Shown here: positions 2,119 to 44,706 of the stretch, piece after piece
How positions within the stretch are numbered: the first letter of the stretch is position 1
How the letters are laid out: the number at the start of each line of letters is the position of its first letter
Origin: Drancourtella massiliensis
Lineage (GTDB): Bacteria; Bacillota; Clostridia; Lachnospirales; Lachnospiraceae
Direction of reading: 5' to 3'
Length of the DNA stretch: 64,000 nucleotides
Assembly: GCF_016900655.1 (NCBI RefSeq)
Contig: NZ_JACJKH010000007.1
Location: 62,001-126,000, forward strand
The notes under the pieces: model-generated
Databases searched by the model: none
Seen by the model: the letters and a program-made list of their open reading frames with translations, nothing else
What the model was told of the DNA's origin: nothing
Made by a program: the position numbers and the translations under genes

Positions 2119-2757
2119 TTATAATTTGGAATATCCGTAACTGTTTACCAGCGCCTCAACACGCTTTCCTTCCCTGCACATCGGGCAGCTCTGCGGAGTG
2201 TATGCTTTGTAGTCCGGCAGATCCGCGCTAGTAAAAATAGATTTCACTTCCATATCCGCGATCCTGGACACAGCACTGAAAATTCCTGCAACGCCGCACA
2301 CCTTCCCGCCGTAATACAGTACAGACTCCGCTGCCTTTAAGATCGTCTTTCCTGTTGTAATCGAAGCCGCCAGAATCAGTACCTGCTTGTTTTCAATCAT
2401 CCGGATCTTATTATCACGGAACAAAATCTGTCCCATCGTATCAAACTCCGGCGTCACAACAGAAATATTGTTGTCGTGGCTCATGGACATATTTGTCTCG
2501 TCCGCCAGAATCTCTGCCATAAATGTACCGATCACTTCCGTTTCATCCAGGCATACGATCGTGTCAATGTACGTATGCGTGTATTCCCCCGCCAGAACCC
2601 TGGCTGTCTCCCGCGCATTGTGGTGTCTTGTTTTGACTGTGGACATATCGATATAGGTATTGATATGAGAATTACTTGTGGCAAAATGACCTTTCAGAAT
2701 CTTAATCCGCGCCTTCGGATTCTTCCCGGAACGCAGATTGGTTAAACGTTCATCCAT
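2119..2757 (-). CDS. Orotate phosphoribosyltransferase-like protein
   Basis: A 212-residue protein with the layout of a type I phosphoribosyltransferase, probably of the PyrE-like group: an early variable part, a central segment with DTMGQILF, then VLILAASITTGKTILKAAE where the PRPP-binding loop is expected. In typical members that loop begins with two acidic residues after the hydrophobic strand; here they are Ala-Ala. The C-terminus carries SCPMCREGKRVE. The start has GGAGGG nine bases upstream, and an extended -10 element lies before it. It follows the amidohydrolase pair but seems separately transcribed. Whether it uses PRPP is uncertain, so no symbol is given. Confidence 0.6.
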   Translation of the reverse strand: MDERLTNLRSGKNPKARIKILKGHFATSNSHINTYIDMSTVKTRHHNARETARVLAGEYTHTYIDTIVCLDETEVIGTFMAEILADETNMSMSHDNNISVVTPEFDTMGQILFRDNKIRMIENKQVLILAASITTGKTILKAAESVLYYGGKVCGVAGIFSAVSRIADMEVKSIFTSADLPDYKAYTPQSCPMCREGKRVEALVNSYGYSKL

Positions 2758-2813
2758 AGGACTGTCCCTCCTTTTTCATTTCTTTCTGATACGGTAACGG
2801 TTTTGATAAAGTC

Positions 2814-2822
2814 ATTATACCA
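2814..2822 (-). promoter_or_regulatory. Extended -10 promoter for the phosphoribosyltransferase-like gene
   Basis: TGGTATAAT on the minus strand is an extended -10 element (TGn before TATAAT). No good -35 box is visible. It sits within 30 bases of the preceding amidohydrolase stop. Confidence 0.45.
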
Positions 2823-2844
2823 CATTTTCCCTGACAGGAGTATC

Positions 2845-4011
2845 TTATGAAACAGACTGCCAGATGACCTTTCCATCAATCATTGTTTTACACACGCTGG
2901 CATCCGTATCGAGTCCCGGCCTTCCTTTCACCAGGATCAGGTCCGCGTCCTTCCCCTCCCGGAGTGTTCCGACCCGGTCTTCCACTCCAAGGACGTGCGC
3001 CGGATTGATGGTCACCATGCGAAGGGCCCGCAGATACGGTACGCCCTCCCTGACAGCTTCCCCGATATGATGATACAAAGACTCTTCGCTGAGAATCGGC
3101 GAATCGGTGATCAGCGCCACATTCACGCCACGCTCATCCAGCGTTTTGACCGCTTCGATGTCTACTTTCCGCCGCTCTCCTGCCGCCCGGTATGTTCCGA
3201 TCGGCCCGTAGCAGACATCGCATCCGCTTTCCACAATCTCATCGATATAATTGGATGCGCCCCAGGCGTGTTCCAGCGAGAACCGGACTCCATATGCGTT
3301 TGCCACTTCTATGGCGGTCAGCATATCATGCTGGGTACAGTGAATCTTGCATGGAATCTCCCTTTTCAGCGCCGGGATCATCGCCTCCATGTCCGCATCA
3401 TATGCCGGATGATCTCCGGATTCTTTTGCTTCCATGTAATCTTTTGCTTTTCGGAAGGTGTCCCACAGCACCTGAGCCACACCCATCCGGGTCATCGGAA
3501 GCTGGTTTCTCTCTCCATAGGTTCCTTTCGGATTTCCTCCAAGAGCTATTTTTACGGCACACGGAGCCTTAATTGACATGTCAAACACATTATTTCCATA
3601 TGTCTTCAGCGCAAACGGAAGTCCGCAGAACACATTTCCACTTCCAGGAGTCAAAAGCATCGTCGTAATTCCGTGGGAATACGCTGCCTTGAATTCTCTT
3701 GCCTGCGGATTTACGCTGTATCTTGCATCTATGGACAACGTCACCGGATTTGTCATCTCATTTGCGTCATCCACGGAGGATTCTCCGTTAAAATCAAATA
3801 ATCCGATATGAGAATGCGCCTCGATCAGCCCCGGCATGACATTGAGTCCTGCCGCATCGATCACTTCCACATCCCCGGAAAGTTCCTCTTCCGGAATACG
3901 GGTGCCGATCTTCTTGATCTTTCCGTCCTCCACCAGAATCTCACCTGTGAAAACAGTATCTCCATCTTCCATTGTATAAATCGTTCCATTTTGAATCAGA
4001 GTCTGTGCCAT
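2845..4011 (-). CDS. Amidohydrolase, imidazolonepropionase-like (active-looking member of the pair)
   Basis: A 388-residue member of the metal-dependent amidohydrolase superfamily (COG1228-like). The N-terminal beta-sandwich leads to GLIEAHSHIGLF, which keeps the HxH metal motif. Further candidates for metal and catalytic positions are CKIHCTQHD, SLEHAWG and ALITDSP, in the usual order. The C-terminus has the expected NPAHVLGVEDRVGTLREGKDADLILV segment, described here by its start near residue 332. Its ATG overlaps the stop of the upstream paralogue by one base (TGATG), so translation is coupled. The substrate is unknown; a peptide-binding lipoprotein in the same operon suggests an amide or peptide-derived compound. 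Confidence 0.8.
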   Translation of the reverse strand: MAQTLIQNGTIYTMEDGDTVFTGEILVEDGKIKKIGTRIPEEELSGDVEVIDAAGLNVMPGLIEAHSHIGLFDFNGESSVDDANEMTNPVTLSIDARYSVNPQAREFKAAYSHGITTMLLTPGSGNVFCGLPFALKTYGNNVFDMSIKAPCAVKIALGGNPKGTYGERNQLPMTRMGVAQVLWDTFRKAKDYMEAKESGDHPAYDADMEAMIPALKREIPCKIHCTQHDMLTAIEVANAYGVRFSLEHAWGASNYIDEIVESGCDVCYGPIGTYRAAGERRKVDIEAVKTLDERGVNVALITDSPILSEESLYHHIGEAVREGVPYLRALRMVTINPAHVLGVEDRVGTLREGKDADLILVKGRPGLDTDASVCKTMIDGKVIWQSVS

Positions 4012-5117
4012 CAGAATACCACCTCCCCATTGATCATGCTGGTTCTGACTCTTGCCGCATAAGTTTTCACCGGATGTCCGGTATAGATGGAAAGATCCGC
4101 ATCCTTTCCGGTCTCCAGTGTCCCGATTCTGTCAGATACGCCCAGCATTTTTGCCGGATTCAGCGTCATCATCTTCACCACTTCTTCCGCGTCCGCTCCT
4201 GCCCGGTACACTTCAATGGCGGTCCACAGGAACACTTCTCTTCCCTCTGAAAAACCTCCGTTGGAAGCGGTAAACGCAACCAGATTTCCATTCTCATTCA
4301 GATCGCAGATTTTCCCAAGATCCATTCCGTGCTTGGTTACCTGTGAGCAGTCGCTGACATTTCCCAAAATCAGTCCGGCATTCTGCCGCTTGATCTCCTC
4401 CAGCGCCCGGTCAAACTCGTACCCGTCCACCAGGACAAGGGATGTATGTTCCGTTTTCATCATTTCCAGTACACCCTGAATCTCTCCCGCTGTCTGGGCC
4501 GCCACAAAGGCCGGCATGCTGCCCTTTTCAAAGATTTCGCAAATCAGTTTTCCCTTTTCTTGTTCCTCCGGAGCTTTTGCCTTTCTGAGGGCCTCCTGAA
4601 AAATCCAGAATGCTCCCATTCTTGTTTTTGGCATCTGGTTTCGTCCGCCATAGACCGATTTCACCTCGGATGTGACGCTGCACTTGAGTGCCGCCTTTTC
4701 TTTGACAAGCCTGTCTGCCATCTTCATATGGGCAGTTTTGCATACGGCAATCTGTCCACCCATCACATTGGCATTTCCAGGAGTCAGGCCCACTGCCGTG
4801 ATCCCGCTCTTATAAAACTCCTGGGCATCGATCTCATCCGGATCAATGGCATATTTCACATTCAGCTGCGGAGTCAGCGGATCGGTTTTCTCCTGATTGT
4901 CCAGATATCTGGACGGCATCCCCATGGCTCCCACAGAGGAATGAGGATCAATGAATCCAGGGAAAATCTCGCAGCCGGACGCATCGATCACCTCCGCCTC
5001 CTGACAGCAGATGCCAGGCGCGATGTCCCGGATCACCCGCCCTTCCGTCAAAATGTCGCATCCATCCAGGACGGTCCCGTCCCCTACATGGATTCTTCCG
5101 TTTTTTATCAGGTACAT
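4011..5117 (-). CDS. Amidohydrolase-family protein with degenerate metal motif
   Basis: A 368-residue paralogue of the downstream gene. Shared landmarks include YGGRNQMPKTRMG (YGERNQLPMTRMG in the partner) and NPAKMLGVSDRIGTLETGKD. The metal motif HxH is replaced: GFIDPHSSVGAMG reads H-S-S. The regions that carry histidines in the partner (IHCTQH, LEHAWG) instead read LVLVDGYEF and LGNVSDCS, and the usual TDS segment reads TASNGG. It may be a non-catalytic partner of a heteromer, or use a different chemistry. The start at 5117 follows AAGGAGGGACAAC; an upstream ATG at 5156 lacks such a site. It is downstream of oppA and coupled to its paralogue. Confidence 0.75.
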   Translation of the reverse strand: MYLIKNGRIHVGDGTVLDGCDILTEGRVIRDIAPGICCQEAEVIDASGCEIFPGFIDPHSSVGAMGMPSRYLDNQEKTDPLTPQLNVKYAIDPDEIDAQEFYKSGITAVGLTPGNANVMGGQIAVCKTAHMKMADRLVKEKAALKCSVTSEVKSVYGGRNQMPKTRMGAFWIFQEALRKAKAPEEQEKGKLICEIFEKGSMPAFVAAQTAGEIQGVLEMMKTEHTSLVLVDGYEFDRALEEIKRQNAGLILGNVSDCSQVTKHGMDLGKICDLNENGNLVAFTASNGGFSEGREVFLWTAIEVYRAGADAEEVVKMMTLNPAKMLGVSDRIGTLETGKDADLSIYTGHPVKTYAARVRTSMINGEVVF

Positions 5118-5189
5118 GCTGTTGTTGTCCCTCCTTTTCTGAAAAAAGCCGATCACAAAAGCGACCGGCCCTTTTTGCTGACTGGTATT

Positions 5190-6872
5190 CTAATTTTCCA
5201 CGGAAACCTGTGAAAAGTCTACCAGACCGTTTGTTGCTACATAATAATTTTTTACATGGTTTTTCACGTAAGTCGGTGATGCTTCCAGGTACATTGGAGC
5301 AATCAGGGCATTTCCTACCACAAGCTGTTCCGCCTGAAGATAGATCTCCGCCTTTTCCTTGTCATCTACGACATCTTTTGCCTGATTCAGAAGTTCTGTA
5401 AACTTCTGGGAATCTTCATTGTTCCATCCTGTCTTGTCCGCGTTGAAATAACCATTGACCGGTTCAAACAGCTGCAGAAGTGCACTTGGTTCATTATAGT
5501 ACGGTCCCCAGCCTCCGCAGGCAATGTCATAATCTCCGGCATCGATTTTATCCCACATGATGTTCCATTCCATCATATCGATCTGCACATTGATACCAAG
5601 CTTTTCTTCCCATACCTGTTTCATCCACTCACCGATCTTCTTGGAAAGCTCTGATGTTCCGCGGCTTGCGTAGCGGATCGTCATCTGAGACGGATCTGTA
5701 CTCTTTCCAAGCTCTGCAAGACCTTCCTGCAGAAGTGCCTTTGGATCTGTGTATTCTTCCTGCATCTGAGTTACAAAGTAATTCTTTCCGTCTACAAGCT
5801 CTGTATAGGTTTTATCTCCCACCTTCATCGTATCCGGCATCATAGAGTAAATCGGTACAGACATACCATCCCGGAGCGTATCTACCATTTCCTGCCTGTC
5901 AAAAGCAATGGAAAGTGCCTGGCGGATTTTCGTATTGCTCAAATATTCATTTTTCAGATTGAACATAAAGAAATCCGGTGCACTGGACGGAACCGTCATC
6001 TCCTGGGAGTCGCCGGCCGCCGTGATGGTTTTACCCCAGTTGGTGTCCGATGTGCTGACAACATCCAGCTCGCCGTTGATAAACGCCTGCACTGCTGTGG
6101 AAGATTCCTGGATAACCTTGTAATTGACTTTGTCCAGCTGCATGTCTTCCTGTCCCCAGTACTGATCGTTCTTCTCCAGAACCATCTCGGTATTCTGATT
6201 CCAGCTTGTCACTTTTAACGGTCCGTTGTAGACTGTCTTATCCGGAGCAGTTCCATATTCGGATCCATATTCCTCATATTTGGCCTGGTTGACCGGATAT
6301 GCGGAACCTGCTACCAGCTGTAAGAAATAGGACGCCGGGTGTACCAGCTGGATTTCCAGAGTTTCCTCATCCAATGCCTTGACACCGATTTCATCCGGTG
6401 TCTTTCCATTGTTGTACAGTGCCTCTGAGAAATTGACAATGACTCCGTCAAACAGCCATGCATTCGTTGCCGCTGTATTTGGATCTGCCATCTGTTTGAA
6501 CGTAAATTCGAAATCGTTGGCTGTCACCTTGGATCCATCGCTCCACTTTGCGTCCGGATTCATGTGGAATGTGTAGGTCAGTCCATCCTCGCTGACATCC
6601 CAGCTTTCGGCTGCTGCAGGCACAATCTCATCCGTATTGTCCTTTGCGGAACGGTCTCTTATGAGAGGATCATAAATCATGTTGTGGGCGATATTGTCCG
6701 GCGCTGTTGTATTGACCAGTGGATTTAATCCGACTACCACGCTGTTGGTGGAAATGTTCAGCACCTGTTCGGAAGATCCGCCTCCACCTGATTTTTCATC
6801 GCCCCCGCATCCTGCGAGAAGCCCTGCTGTCATGACTGCTGCAAGCAGACATGCAAGTACTCTCTTTTTCAT
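5190..6872 (-). CDS. Peptide ABC transporter substrate-binding lipoprotein (family 5, OppA/DppA type)
   Basis: A 560-residue extracytoplasmic binding protein. It has a lipoprotein signal peptide, a hydrophobic core then LLAGC with Cys near residue 21, followed by a Gly/Ser-rich linker. Family 5 features follow: LNPLVNTTAPDNIAHNMIYDPL, WDVSEDGLTYTFHM (residues ~90-103), the ILSNTKIRQALSIAFDR-type segment with KIRQALSIAFDR, and a late WGPYYNEPS. Such proteins bind oligo- or dipeptides for an OppBCDF-type permease. Only an OppF fragment remains upstream, so the permease genes are missing here. The spacing to the first amidohydrolase is 72 bases and suggests an operon. Confidence 0.9.
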   Translation of the reverse strand: MKKRVLACLLAAVMTAGLLAGCGGDEKSGGGGSSEQVLNISTNSVVVGLNPLVNTTAPDNIAHNMIYDPLIRDRSAKDNTDEIVPAAAESWDVSEDGLTYTFHMNPDAKWSDGSKVTANDFEFTFKQMADPNTAATNAWLFDGVIVNFSEALYNNGKTPDEIGVKALDEETLEIQLVHPASYFLQLVAGSAYPVNQAKYEEYGSEYGTAPDKTVYNGPLKVTSWNQNTEMVLEKNDQYWGQEDMQLDKVNYKVIQESSTAVQAFINGELDVVSTSDTNWGKTITAAGDSQEMTVPSSAPDFFMFNLKNEYLSNTKIRQALSIAFDRQEMVDTLRDGMSVPIYSMMPDTMKVGDKTYTELVDGKNYFVTQMQEEYTDPKALLQEGLAELGKSTDPSQMTIRYASRGTSELSKKIGEWMKQVWEEKLGINVQIDMMEWNIMWDKIDAGDYDIACGGWGPYYNEPSALLQLFEPVNGYFNADKTGWNNEDSQKFTELLNQAKDVVDDKEKAEIYLQAEQLVVGNALIAPMYLEASPTYVKNHVKNYYVATNGLVDFSQVSVEN

Positions 6873-6909
6873 ACTATTCCTCCTTTTTAAAATTTTGTTC
6901 TCTATCCTA

Positions 6910-6929
6910 AATCCATGTATCCATGGATT
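6910..6929 (-). other. Intercistronic stem-loop between oppF remnant and oppA
   Basis: AATCCATG-TATC-CATGGATT is a perfect 8-pair inverted repeat directly after the oppF stop. No U tract follows, so it is more likely an mRNA-stabilising or processing stem than a terminator. This is inference. Confidence 0.4.
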
Positions 6930-6930
6930 G

Positions 6931-7341
6931 TCAGATCTCTTTTACCCTGTGGCATGCTACAAAATGTCCCTTCTCTATCTCCTCAAGCTTTGGCGTCTCG
7001 CTGCGGCAGAGGTCCGTCGCATACCGGCACCGTGCTGCAAACCGGCATCCCGGCTTTGGATTGACCGGACTTGGAATTTCGCCCTCAATCGGGATCCGGG
7101 TCTTTTTCTTTTCCTCTTTCGGATCCGGAATCGGGATCGCCGACATCAATGCCTTCGTGTATGGATGCAGCGGATTGTCATACAGCTCATTGCTGGACGC
7201 GAATTCCACCATGTTTCCGAGATACATAACGCCGACCCGATCGGAGATATGCTTTACCATGGAAAGATCATGGGCGATGAAAAGATAGGTCAGATTCTTT
7301 TTCTTCTGAAGCTCAATCAGAAGGTTGACGATTTCCTTATC
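6931..7341 (-). pseudogene. C-terminal remnant of an oligopeptide/dipeptide ABC transporter ATPase (OppF/DppF)
   Basis: Translation upstream of the first ATG in this frame reads DKEIVNLLIELQKKKNLTY and then LFIAHDLSMVKHIS, the region just after the ABC signature up to the switch histidine. It continues through GVMYLGNMVEFA, NPLHPYTKALMSAIP and the Cys-rich GCRFAARCRYA typical of the OppF/DppF C-terminus. The Walker A, Q-loop, signature and Walker B parts are absent: recognisable homology stops near 7341, and the sequence before it is an unrelated terminator. A normal protein is about 320 residues; roughly 136 codons remain. The reading frame is intact downstream of the junction, so the truncation may be recent. 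Confidence 0.88.
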
Positions 7342-7344
7342 AAA

Positions 7345-7402
7345 TAAAAAAAGAGCCGTTCATCATCCAACGATACGACCGCATTGTTGGAGCAACAGCT
7401 CT
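7345..7402 (-). terminator. Intrinsic terminator at the junction with the oppF remnant
   Basis: A nine-pair outer stem (AGAGCTGTT with AACGGCTCT, one G-U) and an inner CCAAC/GTTGG stem are followed by a run of seven T on the minus strand. It would end transcripts of the DUF3791 module and stop them entering the peptide operon. Confidence 0.8.
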
Positions 7403-7424
7403 GATCTTTCATGTTTCCAAATAT

Positions 7425-7634
7425 TTAATTCTCTTTTTTCATTTCGGCAATATAATCATCAATATCCTTTATGATATACTGCTCTCCCATTGTATGGAGA
7501 GACTCAAAATACTTCATAATATACTCATCCACTTTGCAGCTTTCGAACAGATCTGCAACTTCAGAACCAGAGAGCCCTTTAAAATGACGATATCTCTCCA
7601 TGCAGTAAATCAAAAAACCGGCTTCTTTGCTCAT
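7425..7634 (-). CDS. DUF3791 family protein
   Basis: A 69-residue acidic protein, starting MSKEAGFLIYCMERYRHFKG, with SGSEVADLFESCKVDEYIM and a C-terminal IIKDIDDYIAEMKK. This matches my recollection of the DUF3791 family, common in gut clostridia next to DUF3990 genes. The start at 7634 is preferred over 7661 because GGAGGAGG lies nine bases before it and it then follows the previous gene by 4 bases instead of overlapping. Function is unknown. Pairing with DUF3990, which I recall as resembling ADP-ribosyltransferase folds, suggests an antitoxin-like or regulatory role, but that is inference. Confidence 0.75.
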   Translation of the reverse strand: MSKEAGFLIYCMERYRHFKGLSGSEVADLFESCKVDEYIMKYFESLHTMGEQYIIKDIDDYIAEMKKEN

Positions 7635-7638
7635 CTTC

Positions 7639-7878
7639 TTATGCCTCCTCCGGATAATCATAGGATCCTGTTAAAAGTTCATCCTGGTACATCGTATAAA
7701 GTGTCAGGGGGCTGTAATGCCATAGTTTCGATTGTTCATCAGAAAGTTCCTTGTATAATTTCGATCGATAAAAACATGAAATTGCCGATTTTTCATCTAT
7801 ATTACTATTTTTTACAATTTGATCGATAATAGGCGGTATAATAATAGCCAACATTGCGCTGAACTGATCCTGATTCAT
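7639..7878 (-). CDS. Small protein of a DUF3990/DUF3791-type module, unknown function
   Basis: A 79-residue protein beginning MNQDQFSAMLAIIIPPIIDQ, with a hydrophobic N-terminal third and a C-terminal part containing SKLYKELSDEQSKLWHYSP, LYTMYQDEL and a terminal YPEEA. Its ATG overlaps the TGA of the upstream DUF3990 remnant (ATGA), and GGGAG lies just before it. The three genes thus formed a tightly coupled operon. I recognise the arrangement and the general look of the middle protein from related genomes, but not a named domain. Local base composition is AT-rich: one 60-base line at 7801 has 18 G/C. Confidence 0.65.
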   Translation of the reverse strand: MNQDQFSAMLAIIIPPIIDQIVKNSNIDEKSAISCFYRSKLYKELSDEQSKLWHYSPLTLYTMYQDELLTGSYDYPEEA

Positions 7879-8081
7879 ACAAACTCCCTTCTTTCGAAAT
7901 GAAGATATTGCAATGAATGTTCCGTTGCAAATACCATCTGATTGAATAATTTGCGAATTTTTAGTCCCTCCAGTGTTTGTTCCTTACTTAGCACCCCTGT
8001 CATATAGAGAGTGATCGTACGGTATACATCATCATTTGCCACTGCCCCCAAAAAAGAATCTACCTCTTGCTGCCCTTTCAA
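7875..8081 (-). pseudogene. C-terminal remnant of a DUF3990 family protein
   Basis: The 68 codons contain GAVANDDVYRTITLYMTGVL, KEQTLEGLKIRKLFNQMVF and HSLQYLHFERREFV. This matches the C-terminal third of DUF3990 proteins, in which a G-PVAND segment precedes a helical tail. The N-terminal part expected to carry the enzymatic core is missing: in frame, a TGA occurs a few codons upstream of the only possible start (TTG at 8081), and a tRNA terminator lies directly before it. No promoter is visible. It is best treated as a decayed gene, still coupled by ATGA to the next frame. Confidence 0.72.
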
Positions 8082-8095
8082 ATTTCCAATTATTC

Positions 8096-8135
8096 AAAAA
8101 CAGCGGGAACCCCTTTTCCCTGTGGTTTTCCCGCT
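8096..8135 (-). terminator. Terminator of tRNA-Leu
   Basis: AGCGGGAA and TTCCCGCT pair around an 18-base loop, followed on the minus strand by G and five T. It lies 30 bases after the tRNA 3' end and cuts off the DUF3990 remnant from read-through. Confidence 0.75.
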
Positions 8136-8165
8136 CTTTTCGTATCTCTTTATTTGATAAAGTAC

Positions 8166-8248
8166 TGCCGGCGGCGGGACTTGAACCCGCACATGGTTGC
8201 CCATAACAGATTTTGAGTCTGCCTCGTCTGCCATTCCGACACGCCGGC
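8166..8248 (-). tRNA. tRNA-Leu (anticodon CAA)
   Basis: The minus strand folds as a class II tRNA of 83 bases: acceptor GCCGGCG paired with CGCCGGC, discriminator A, anticodon stem GCAGA/TCTGT with loop CTCAAAA (anticodon CAA), a variable arm with GGGC, and T arm GCGGGTTCAAGTCCCGC. The CCA end is not encoded. The long variable arm and anticodon identify leucine. The truncated DUF3990 module lies directly past the 3' end. Confidence 0.95.
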
Positions 8249-8275
8249 TTTTCCCGGCTGATTAAGCCGAGAATT

Positions 8276-8304
8276 ATTATATCACAGCAACTCTTTGTTT
8301 GCAA
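8276..8304 (-). promoter_or_regulatory. Sigma-A promoter for tRNA-Leu
   Basis: TTGCAA (8304-8299) and TATAAT (8281-8276) are separated by 17 bases. The -10 box lies 28 bases before the mature 5' end. Confidence 0.7.
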
Positions 8305-8308
8305 GGAA

Positions 8309-9601
8309 TTATTTCCAGATTTTTTCTGATTCCGCGATCAGTTCTTTTCCGATCTCAAAGCAGTCGAAGGTTGCAAAGTAGTCTGCCGGAGTCTCGGCGC
8401 GGCGGATCAGCTGTGCTGTTCCATCTTCTTTCAAAAGGACTTCTGCGGATTTGAGTTTTCCGTTGTAATTGTAGCCCATGGAAAATCCGTGTGCTCCGGT
8501 ATCGTGGATCACGAGCACATCTCCCATATCGATCTTCGGAAGCATCCTGTCGATCGCGAATTTATCGTTATTCTCGCAGAGAGATCCGGTGACATCGTAT
8601 TTATGATCACACGGCTCGTTTTCTTTTCCCATTACTGTAATATGATGGTATGCACCATACATGGCCGGGCGCATCAGATTGACCGCGCAGGCATCCACGC
8701 CGATATATTCTTTATGCGTATGTTTTTCATGGATCGCTTTTGTCACAAGACATCCGTACGGTCCCATCATAAATCTTCCAAGTTCCGTGTAGATTGCCAC
8801 ATCCCCCATTTCTGCCGGAACGAGCACTTTTTCGTATACTTTTCGTACGCCTTCTCCGATGACGCGGATATCATTCGGCTCCTGGTCCGGACGGTATGGA
8901 ATTCCGATTCCGCCGGAAAGATTGATAAATTTGATATGAACACCGGTCTCTTCTTTCAGCTTGACCGCTGTTTTGAAAAGCACTTCGGCAAGCATCGGGT
9001 AGTACTCATTCGTCACCGTGTTGCTTGCGAGAAATGCGTGGATTCCGAATTCTTTTGCTCCTTTTGACTTCAGGATTTTAAATGCTTCTGTGATCTGTTC
9101 TGTTGTCATGCCGTATTTGGCATCTCCCGGGTTGTCCATGATGTCATTGGTAATCTGAAAAACTCCACCCGGATTGTAACGGCAGCTGATCGTCTCCGGA
9201 ATGTGTCCGATCGCTTCTTCAAGGAAATCAATATGCGTGATATCATCCAGATTGATGATGGCCCCGAGACGGTCGGCAAGCTGAAAGTCCTCTGCCGGAG
9301 TATCATTGGATGAAAACATGATGTCCTCTCCTTTCATTCCCATTGCCCCGGATAACATCAACTCCGTAAAAGAGGAACAGTCACAGCCGCAGCCATACTC
9401 CTTTAAAATCTGAATCAGGAACGGATTCGGCGTCGCCTTTACTGCAAAATATTCTTTATATCCCGGATTCCATGCAAAGGCCTCCTTTAAAGCTCTTGCG
9501 TTCTCCCGAATTCCCTTTTCATCGTACAGGTGAAACGGGGTCGGAAATTCCTGAATAATTTCATCCAGTTTTTCTTTGGAAACAAATGGTTTCTTTTCCA
9601 T
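8309..9601 (-). CDS. lysA: Diaminopimelate decarboxylase
   Basis: A 430-residue PLP-dependent fold-type III decarboxylase that converts meso-diaminopimelate to lysine. It has the barrel start TPFHLYDEKGI, the PLP lysine in YFAVKATPNP (K55), FINLSGGIGIPY near the glycine-rich phosphate site, ELGRFMMGPYG, and the C-terminal SLCENNDKFA and HDTGAHGFSMGYNYNG, which supplies active-site residues from the partner subunit. Length is usual for the family. The ATG overlaps the stop of the upstream TrmB-type regulator by one base, implying translational coupling and co-transcription from the promoter near 10345. Related group IV decarboxylases for other substrates exist, but the C-terminal motif favours LysA. 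Confidence 0.9.
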   Translation of the reverse strand: MEKKPFVSKEKLDEIIQEFPTPFHLYDEKGIRENARALKEAFAWNPGYKEYFAVKATPNPFLIQILKEYGCGCDCSSFTELMLSGAMGMKGEDIMFSSNDTPAEDFQLADRLGAIINLDDITHIDFLEEAIGHIPETISCRYNPGGVFQITNDIMDNPGDAKYGMTTEQITEAFKILKSKGAKEFGIHAFLASNTVTNEYYPMLAEVLFKTAVKLKEETGVHIKFINLSGGIGIPYRPDQEPNDIRVIGEGVRKVYEKVLVPAEMGDVAIYTELGRFMMGPYGCLVTKAIHEKHTHKEYIGVDACAVNLMRPAMYGAYHHITVMGKENEPCDHKYDVTGSLCENNDKFAIDRMLPKIDMGDVLVIHDTGAHGFSMGYNYNGKLKSAEVLLKEDGTAQLIRRAETPADYFATFDCFEIGKELIAESEKIWK

Positions 9602-10314
9602 CAGTTCTTTTCTCCTTTCGTAAGTTCAATCACTTTTATCTCATTTGCCATCGCCTCTTTGAAAATCTCAACGAAATTGCGCTGGCCTGTATACAGACAG
9701 GTGTTTCCGGACCGCTCTCCATATTCTCCGCTCAGGACAAAGGAGGAATCCACAATCATTCCCACCTGCCCTTTTTTGTCCCCGGCACGGTAAATGGTCC
9801 CTGGTTCTTGTAACTCTTCCCAGTCTGTGATGATGACGACTTTCTTTCCTGCATCGGAAAGAGTCTGCAGATCCGGAAGCACTACTTTCAGGAAAGACTG
9901 TCCGGCTGAAATATAAACTCTTTCTTCTGCTTTTTTCAGAAGACCTCTTGCCTTTGACTCCACTGCCTCCTGTCCGGAAATGGTGATGTAGCCTTCCTCT
10001 TCTTTTTTCTGAACAGGCGCATGGAGAAGCAGCCAGTCCTCCTCATTTTTCAGCTGGTCAATCTTTTCTTCACAGAACTCCTGAACCGGCACTGCAAGAT
10101 ATTTTCTGCCTGTCTCATTTTCTTCCAGATAAGCTGCTCCTTTCTCGCACAGAGAAGCCAGCGAGGCATAGACATTCGAACGGGAAATTCCCGTCAGTTT
10201 TGCCGCCTCATATCCGGTCAGCTTTCCATTCTCAAGAAGGCTCTCATAAAGGGAAGCCTCCTGTCTCGTTAAATCAAATTTCATTAAATGCTCTTTAAAC
10301 TGTTCTGTACCCAT
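9601..10314 (-). CDS. TrmB family transcriptional regulator
   Basis: A 237-residue regulator with an N-terminal winged helix (LTRQEASLYESLLENGKLTG then GISRSNVYASLASLCEKG, residues ~15-58) typical of the TrmB group, a short coiled linker, and a C-terminal ligand-sensing phospholipase-D-like part with VYISAGQSFLKVVLPDLQTL. TrmB proteins were first described as archaeal sugar-responsive repressors; many clostridia have small ones beside metabolic genes. It is translationally coupled to lysA, so it may sense lysine or a precursor. A perfect inverted repeat in its promoter suggests autoregulation. Confidence 0.85.
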   Translation of the reverse strand: MGTEQFKEHLMKFDLTRQEASLYESLLENGKLTGYEAAKLTGISRSNVYASLASLCEKGAAYLEENETGRKYLAVPVQEFCEEKIDQLKNEEDWLLLHAPVQKKEEEGYITISGQEAVESKARGLLKKAEERVYISAGQSFLKVVLPDLQTLSDAGKKVVIITDWEELQEPGTIYRAGDKKGQVGMIVDSSFVLSGEYGERSGNTCLYTGQRNFVEIFKEAMANEIKVIELTKGEKN

Positions 10315-43960: not shown

Positions 43961-44608
43961 TTATTCTGTTTGTAAAGAATTATTTCTGTCTCTTTTTGAA
44001 AAGACACACCCGCAGTAATCCTGGCGGTAGAGTCCGTATTCCCCGGAAAGTTCCACGGAGCGCTTATATCCATTCTTCTTTTTGAAATCAGAAAACAGGT
44101 AAGAAACCCCGTATTCTTCCTGCAGCTTCTGTCCGATTTCGTTGAGTTTCTGCGCATTCTTCATCGGACTGATGGAAAGAGTCGTCGTAAAGAAATCCAT
44201 CTTCCTTTTCTTTGCCTCTTCGGCCGTCCGGCGAAGCCGCATCTCATAGCAGCGAAAACAGCGCTCTCCTCCTTCCGGAAGCTGTTCCATTCCCTTTGCC
44301 ATGTCAAAAAAAACATGCGCATCATAGTCTCCTTCAAGAAAAGAAACCGGATACTTCAGTTTCTCATTCATCCGCTCAATCAGATGTCTCTGCTCTTCTG
44401 CCCGTTTCCGGTATTCCGCTTCCTCTGTGATATTCGGGTTAAAGTAAAAAACCGCGATCCGGAAATAATCTGAAAGATACTCCATCACATAACTGCTGCA
44501 CGGCCCGCAGCAGCTGTGAAGCAAAAGGGTCGGAACCTGCTCTTCCTTCCCGATTTTTTCCAGTATTTTTTCCAGTTCTTTTTGATAGTTTTTCTTCTGC
44601 TCCTGCAT
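43961..44608 (-). CDS. queH: Epoxyqueuosine reductase QueH
   Basis: A 215-residue protein of the DUF208/QueH family, which performs the last step of queuosine synthesis for tRNA wobble G34. Cysteine pairs that bind the Fe-S cluster and a metal are visible: LLHSCCGPCSSYVMEYL near residue 32, RCFRCYEMRLRRTA in the middle and YRQDYCGCVFSKRD near the C-terminus. STTLSISPMKN-like TTTLSISPMKNAQKL and SDFKKKNGYKRSVELS are also family features. It stands alone without other queuosine genes, which suggests salvage or scattered genes. Confidence 0.93.
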   Translation of the reverse strand: MQEQKKNYQKELEKILEKIGKEEQVPTLLLHSCCGPCSSYVMEYLSDYFRIAVFYFNPNITEEAEYRKRAEEQRHLIERMNEKLKYPVSFLEGDYDAHVFFDMAKGMEQLPEGGERCFRCYEMRLRRTAEEAKKRKMDFFTTTLSISPMKNAQKLNEIGQKLQEEYGVSYLFSDFKKKNGYKRSVELSGEYGLYRQDYCGCVFSKRDRNNSLQTE

Positions 44609-44706
44609 GGTTTCTCCTTTTCGGCTTTTATTCTACTGATAGTTATAATTCACATCTTTTTCTCTGTCAACATACATTATGATATAAATAGAAGGAGGTC
44701 AGCAAT

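Follow-up and report, generated by a model that had tools for sequence, protein, structure and literature searches.

The window, the whole 64,000-nt stretch of Drancourtella massiliensis DNA that was analysed, carries a module of three components (PADLOC candidate PDC-M13) that is rather likely toxin-antitoxin-like, with a predicted toxin of ADP-ribosyltransferase (ART)/NADase fold and a predicted pair of antitoxins, and that has recently lost most of the toxin gene. This reading builds on the identities of the genes, the shortening of DUF3990 compared with the corresponding locus of a sister species, the intact partners, the recency of the loss, the predicted ART-type fold of a relative, gene fusions and a recurrent loss of the toxin side; toxicity, its neutralisation, the NAD+ chemistry and a protective role of the leftover genes are what we infer. 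In an intact copy, DUF3990 would be a small ART/NADase-fold toxin that degrades NAD+ or modifies a target in the cell with it, and a 79-aa protein and DUF3791, distantly homologous helical proteins, would jointly bind DUF3990 and hold it inactive. In the window, a deletion of ~329 bp has taken the start of the predicted toxin and most of its conserved residues and left the predicted antitoxin pair intact.

Organization of the module in the window

The module lies on the minus strand at positions 7425–8081, between tRNA-Leu(CAA) and the tail of an oppF-like gene (Table 1). As the sequence-only reading had described, it consists of three tightly coupled frames: the DUF3990 frame (7875–8081) and the 79-aa frame (7639–7878) share an ATGA overlap, and the likely ATG of DUF3791, preceded by GGAGG in a frame open from 7425 to 7661, follows 4 bases past the stop of the 79-aa gene. 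The order DUF3990, small protein, DUF3791, which that reading had likened to an arrangement in gut clostridia, was recovered by Pfam and PADLOC profile searches. DUF3791 matched PF12668 (4.4e-17, 62.3 bits at a cut-off of 25) over profile positions 2–59 of 60, the DUF3990 frame matched PF13151 (5.1e-14, 52.7 bits at a cut-off of 32.2) only over positions 94–152 of 152, and the 79-aa protein had no match in the Pfam profile search. All three genes matched PDC-M13 models, with best values of 2.5e-31 (DUF3791), 3.2e-27 (79-aa protein) and 7.4e-22 (DUF3990, covering only positions 95–157 of 159 of PDC-M13A). The PDC-M13B and PDC-M13C components are adjacent and their genes coupled; a complete three-gene PDC-M13 is not present in the window, where DUF3990 lacks profile positions 1–93. 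Searches of the module proteins against NCBIfam and PHROGs gave weak matches only (best E 0.043 and 0.013).

Table 1 Features at the module locus (window coordinates)
Feature	Position	Strand	Remarks
tRNA-Leu (CAA)	8166..8248	-	directly upstream of the module; module just 3′ of tRNA-Leu here and in G002
Terminator-like element: inverted repeat, then T run	8092..8145	-	between tRNA-Leu and the module
Deletion junction	8050..8053		4-base overlap of the two G002-aligned segments; ~329 bp of G002 missing
DUF3990 C-terminal remnant	7875..8053	-	without conserved H5, G26, Y30, T32, W81, R89
79-aa predicted antitoxin component, intact	7639..7878	-	PADLOC PDC-M13B; four-helix AF2 model, pLDDT 91.6
DUF3791 predicted antitoxin component, intact, 69 aa	7425..7634	-	PDC-M13C; likely ATG 7634
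OppF-like ATPase, C-terminal part	6931..7329	-	oligo_HPY match; remainder of oppF missing, as is the oppBCD-gntR block of G001

Truncation of DUF3990 and its age

In a genome of the same genus (G002), this tRNA-Leu also precedes the module, but there DUF3990 is full length (160 codons counted from an ATG behind AGGAG, or 178 counted from a TTG; PDC-M13A, 1.4e-73). The G002 contig ends inside DUF3791, and the module is complete up to that point. BLAST aligned positions 1–583 of this locus (L028) to window 7471–8053 with 96% identity and positions 909–2387 to window 8050–9528 with 86% identity. About 329 bp of G002 are absent from the window, and the start codon and ribosome-binding site of DUF3990 are gone. 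Lost as well are 18 of the 26 positions conserved in ≥90% of 65 homologues; at a nineteenth, D99, the apparent match in the window is supplied by the joined leader. The partial profile match and this alignment agree with the earlier claim that only DUF3990 is decayed and its partners are intact. The further claim that frame 7875–8081 holds the DUF3990 C-terminus stands for 7875–8053, while the residues encoded at ~8054–8081 derive from leader sequence that once lay upstream and that the deletion has fused in frame.

We consider it very improbable that the resulting 68-codon frame encodes a functional short protein and not a remnant. The frame is open, with a 10:1 synonymous bias against G002, but the G002 orthologue is full length, the start codon and ribosome-binding site have gone, the first residues are former leader, and the bias most likely predates the deletion. 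The frame begins with a TTG, with no ribosome-binding site recognisable by eye. Intact homologues are mostly ~155–180 aa and are thus not consistently as short as 68 codons, which the sequence-only reading had named as grounds for refutation.

The DUF3990 remnant differs from G002 by ten synonymous codons and one nonsynonymous codon over 58 codons, the 79-aa gene by nine and one over 80 codons, and DUF3791 by one and none over the 63 codons before the G002 contig ends. Since free drift of DUF3990 for most of the divergence would predict mostly nonsynonymous changes, the observed 10:1 indicates that the loss is recent. Therefore, the intact small genes say nothing yet about selection, and with so few changes after so recent a deletion a test for purifying selection on them is not meaningful.

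Surroundings of the module at tRNA-Leu

In a second genome of the genus (G001), the tRNA-Leu is followed by a dinB-like gene, gntR, oppB, oppC, oppD, oppF and oppA (names given by eye from the frames). Compared with G001, the window lacks all that lies between the tRNA and mid-oppF and has the module in its place; homology to oppF starts at 7329. What remains is a truncated oppF (6931–7329) with oppA downstream, and gntR, oppB, oppC and oppD are missing. In 60-base bins, identity to G002 is mostly 93–100% across the module and the tRNA (two bins reach 53/60 and 55/60), and mostly 78–90% in the next gene beyond the tRNA, which suggests lateral spread or recombination of the module at tRNA-Leu. 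Insertion via direct repeats of the tRNA 3′ end was considered and rejected, as a repeat search of the two ends turned up nothing convincingly att-like. Near both edges of the module lies a 12-nt perfect inverted repeat (7337–7348 / 8149–8160), with one copy at the oppF break. Elsewhere, G001 carries a PDC-M10A-type DUF3990 gene without partner (L241 5172–5693); at that place the genome of the window has a short spacer (44527–44647) between a queH-like and an ABC-transporter gene, which allows an empty-site comparison.

Recurrent loss of DUF3990 and occurrence without partners

The host genome has three antitoxin-like loci and no intact DUF3990; all three of its DUF3990 matches are partial. 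At C1:190594-191234, DUF3990 is split, DUF3791 is frameshifted and the 79-aa homologue is open. On C2, a fused 156-aa protein with DUF3791 and the 79-aa-type partner (PDC-M10B, 1.4e-67) has no detected DUF3990 and lies directly before a recQ-like gene. At this locus (L114 1639–2110; G000:C2 from ~189138), the fused gene stops at 2109 and the recQ-like ATG is at 2110. From this arrangement, the fused protein is possibly an orphan antitoxin in the recQ transcript.

Using the 79-aa profile and DUF3990 as queries, we examined 150 genomes of the family and fetched doubtful loci, a co-occurrence survey of the kind that the sequence-only reading had proposed. Among 71 matches to the 79-aa family, 40 lie beside an intact DUF3990, 17 beside remnants or broken frames (including the window and a second locus of the same genome) and 9 beside none; 5 were set aside, two at a contig start (G102:C13, G082:C38), one with a broken 79-aa homologue (G097:C3) and two as partial or weak (G104:C1, G097:C1). 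DUF3990 has thus been lost recurrently with its partners kept, in 26 of 71 matches. The remnants range from 28 N-terminal profile positions between two intact partners (L279) and 25 C-terminal positions (L284) to nothing at all between two partner domains ~60 bp apart (L276).

Against the toxin-antitoxin reading stands the existence of intact DUF3990 genes without recognised partner. We fetched 20 loci whose intact DUF3990 initially appeared partnerless. All 19 from the family, which were high-scoring, have a partner frame of 151–181 aa, with both domains seen in 15 and the DUF3791 part alone in 4 (L292, L296, L301, L302), whose frames have the length of the fused form. A partner is likewise present at L029, L030, L034, L036, L055 and L144, six further such loci. 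The twentieth (L311 in G025, outside the family) has no detected partner. This genome belongs to another family of the order, and its partnerless DUF3990 gene lies inside a BREX operon (2119–9835), flanked by brxC and pglX; genes for an OLD-like ATPase and a UvrD-like protein (by eye) are next in line. The lower-scoring loci with a DUF3990 of ~180–220 aa gave a different picture: among 13, ten are partnerless, two have an M42B-like and one an M13-type partner. All six fetched loci with a long DUF3990 (229–306 aa) have a PDC-M42B-like partner. Broken DUF3990 without partner was found at L350 and, as fragments, at L116, L117 and L125.

Together with L045, L147 and L146, the ten lower-scoring ones make 13 solitary intact DUF3990 genes. 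In a tree of 93 tips, nine of these 13 (L339, L340, L341, L342, L343, L344, L346, L045 and L147; ~180 aa) form a pure clade with a support of 0.97, apart from the M10/M13 genes, and this clade may have another role or another antitoxin. The solitary L337 falls among genes with fused partners, and L347, L349 and L146 fall among M13 genes. Just downstream of DUF3990, L146 (2016–2243) and L349 (2546–2773; both reverse-strand coordinates) share a 75-aa gene that matches no partner profile and might represent a third partner type. The neighbours of L347 are larger and unfamiliar. Partnerless, too, is L043 (G001:C7), which keeps the core residues and departs at Q37 and A106. Partner-side absences among the DUF3990 matches listed therefore number five in the M10/M13 part of the tree (L337, L347, L349, L146, L043), plus the separate clade of nine.

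Among these listed matches, 26 toxin-side losses compare with 5 partner-side ones for the M10/M13 genes of the tree, or with 14 if the solitary clade is included by locus (one-sided binomial, 1e-4 and 0.04). The test is approximate: it treats loci as independent, a single event could account for the clade of nine, and each side was counted in a search of its own. The DUF3990 matches of the family were listed to E 1.8e-11, and most long loci (>225 aa) among them were left out of the fetch. The pattern favours a toxin that must not outlive its antitoxin.

It bears on the idea that DUF3990 is a regulator or housekeeping enzyme with the small proteins as its cofactors, and the truncation a random decay of a dispensable operon. 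The clade of nine and the five scattered partnerless genes would agree with this, as would the DUF3990 fragments without partners (L116, L117, L125, L350). Random decay, however, predicts about equal loss of the ~480-bp DUF3990 and the ~450-bp partner genes, against the 26 to 5 (26 to 14 with the solitary clade) observed, and the predicted DUF3990 fold resembles toxins of toxin-antitoxin systems; we regard this explanation as quite unlikely.

The same pattern has two sides for the earlier proposal that the surviving antitoxin-like pair is a functional relic. An antitoxin-like pair is what the recurrent DUF3990 loss with partners kept would suggest, partnerless DUF3990 genes being fewer or in a separate clade. 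A function as a relic is not borne out: the deletion is too recent, and the scan between the terminator-like repeat and the 79-aa gene found no promoter-like site. Selection may have kept the pair as an orphan antitoxin (anti-addiction) against DUF3990 toxins arriving on plasmids or phages, and the three antitoxin-like loci of a host with no intact DUF3990, the frequency of toxin-less loci with intact partners and the plasmids and viral contigs on which DUF3990 relatives ride would all fit. We nevertheless hold it to be unlikely for the window, because after so recent a loss the small genes would be intact even without selection, because the toxin is expected to go first wherever losing the antitoxin first does harm, even if nothing is gained later, and because the scan showed no promoter-like site for the leftover.

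Architecture of related modules

The architecture was surveyed in 61 genomes (the host's own and 60 relatives) and in the fetched loci. Gene orders are DUF3791-DUF3990-79aa or, as in the window, DUF3990-79aa-DUF3791; in another form, DUF3990 is followed by one protein of ~150 aa with both small domains in either order. Fused small genes occur, e.g., in L029, L030, L032, L034-L036, L055, L135 and L144. At L137, L138 and L149, DUF3791 is fused to the N-terminus of DUF3990 in one frame of 237–239 codons, followed by a 79-aa homologue; by domain content, these are predicted antitoxin-toxin fusions. Several DUF3990/DUF3791/79aa sets stand in tandem on one contig at L156 (4868–8081). We also took the best 80 of at least 564 named loci chosen by the DUF3990 motif: all 80 have an adjacent partner (L154 and L173 end at contig ends), and DUF3990 is in two frames at L171, L216 and L224.

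Aligned with hhalign, the 79-aa and DUF3791 profiles scored 26.4 (probability 61%), compared with at most 15.0 for 40 column shuffles and 10.6 for the reversed control, so the two proteins are probably distant homologues. In the partner of the longer, PDC-M42A-type DUF3990, a match to the 79-aa profile (33.8, 73%; shuffles at most 15.6) precedes one to DUF3791 (27.8, 41%; shuffles at most 21.0, reversed 17.4). In L042, the M42-type partner also matches helix-turn-helix (HTH) models, and alignment shows a comparable extension in the partners of L048 and L136. PDC-M42B thus seems to be a remote version with two domains, sometimes extended by an HTH-like part. Because PDC-M10B matches the fused 79aa/DUF3791-type protein and PDC-M42B aligns to both small profiles, the three PADLOC candidates M10, M13 and M42 appear to be variant forms of a single system, with M42 included on weak profile similarity.

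Predicted fold and activity of DUF3990

A PDB chain search by sequence returned nothing significant for DUF3990 (best E 0.95), the 79-aa protein (0.26) or DUF3791 (0.1). We therefore modelled DUF3990 with AF2 from an alignment of 65 sequences with the relative L153 in the first row (pLDDT 92.7). In Foldseek, the only PDB rows below 1e-3 were two RES-Xre chains (E 3.4e-4 and 3.9e-4), with moderate TM scores of 0.45–0.49 and an rmsd of about 6. VIA-align placed ParT first (Z 8.4, 128 aligned, rmsd 4.0, 7% identity), followed by other ADP-ribosylating toxins and an MbcT-MbcA entry (Z 7.4), although a Z near 8 may reflect a common fold only and not relation. DUF3990, as modelled for this relative, has an ART-type predicted fold nearest to the RES-Xre and ParST toxins, in line with the earlier supposition that it may be the enzymatic or toxic part. 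The four-helix AF2 model of the 79-aa protein found no match in a fold search of the PDB (best E 4.5), small helical models being uninformative.

Invariant in the 65 homologues are H5, Y30, T32, W81, R89, D99, D108 and Q139, and judged by sequence they would be compatible with an H-Y type ART motif. Published work places DUF3990 in the Pfam ART clan (PMC7955679) and, in Serratia, at the C-terminus of an Rhs protein as its last domain (PMC4524185). Because of the fold matches, the clan and the Rhs C-terminal position, an NAD+-using toxin is the likeliest role predicted for DUF3990.

Mobility and defence neighbourhood

Relatives of DUF3990 occur on 70 plasmid records (Bacteroides 42, Phocaeicola 8, Parabacteroides 8, Moraxella 5, Lactobacillus 2 and five names once), of which 28 are conjugative, 8 mobilizable and 34 neither. 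On pBF9343, where the plasmid partners were examined, DUF3990 comes after a DUF3791 gene of 149 codons, and one small gene separates it from a zeta toxin gene further on; most listed plasmid rows name DUF3791 under their match. Twenty-four viral contigs carry a DUF3990 relative, 15 with a recognised partner and 9 without one within 1.5 kb, and six unannotated phage records also match.

We further compared the neighbouring ORFs (110–750 aa) of the best 80 of at least 564 named loci, leaving out one of 128 nearest neighbours, L189:5253-5672, which belongs to a second module. Among the nearest neighbours, where the 25 commonest of 199 families were listed, type I methyltransferases made up 5/127 for their commonest families and specificity subunits 4/127; more than 3 kb away, specificity subunits made up 1/105 and no type I methyltransferase was among the 25 of 113 families listed. 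This points to a modest neighbourhood signal of type I restriction-modification, and at L031 a copy of the module adjoins a type I methyltransferase gene. A possible defence locus is L126 (29–2124), where an orphan pair of 79aa and DUF3791 without DUF3990 follows an AbiLi/AriA-like ATPase gene and a second gene.

An anti-phage function would draw on the PADLOC 'candidate' label and this modest signal. That the module serves phage defence by abortive infection and not addiction, with the defence lost in the window copy, seems to us possible but doubtful. All three components match PADLOC PDC-M13, type I methyltransferases and specificity subunits are commoner among nearest neighbours than more than 3 kb away, and L031 lies beside a methyltransferase gene and the partnerless L311 inside a BREX operon; yet PDC entries are unvalidated candidates, the signal is modest and the neighbours read in the window (opp, tRNA, a decarboxylase-like gene) are not defence genes. 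Phage defence and the toxin-antitoxin reading are not exclusive of each other.

Discussion

On its own, the window is an ordinary decayed copy; the interest lies in the pattern across the family and in an assignment that can be tested. DUF3990 and DUF3791 are families of 'unknown function', and the profiles of these two and of the 79-aa protein have no significant match to a PDB chain. The module family is widespread and probably toxin-antitoxin-like; for PDC-M13, 3,324 loci have been reported from rumen genomes (PMC13356809). Our search of the open-access literature, subscription papers and preprints excluded, found no description of the DUF3990/DUF3791 module as a toxin-antitoxin system. If true, the assignment as toxin and split antitoxin would supply a mechanism for a candidate defence system that is widespread and would unite three PADLOC candidates, and naturally toxin-deleted copies could serve as controls for it. 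A less likely reading is that DUF3990 with 79-aa/DUF3791 is one large ART-toxin system with a split two-domain antitoxin (fused in M10, separate in M13, HTH-bearing in M42), and that many gut Clostridia, as in the host genome, have turned it into antitoxins standing alone, which would counter this toxin when plasmids or phages bring it in.

Among known systems, the nearest by name is the PADLOC candidate PDC-M13, all three models of which are matched by the window genes, with the toxin component incomplete. Foldseek matched the DUF3990 model best to RES-Xre chains, and in RES-Xre and MbcTA a small antitoxin gene is adjacent to the toxin. Unlike RES-Xre, the M13 and M10 forms have no Xre protein, and their antitoxin would be split into two small helical proteins. 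MbcTA, whose MbcT-MbcA chain reached Z 7.4 to the model, is likewise an NAD+-acting toxin-antitoxin system. ParT of ParST is the best VIA-align match, yet with 7% identity, and resembles DUF3990 in predicted toxin fold. DarTG and CmdTAC, the latter with three components, also have ART-fold toxins in toxin-antitoxin or defence systems; their antitoxin components appear to differ from 79-aa/DUF3791.
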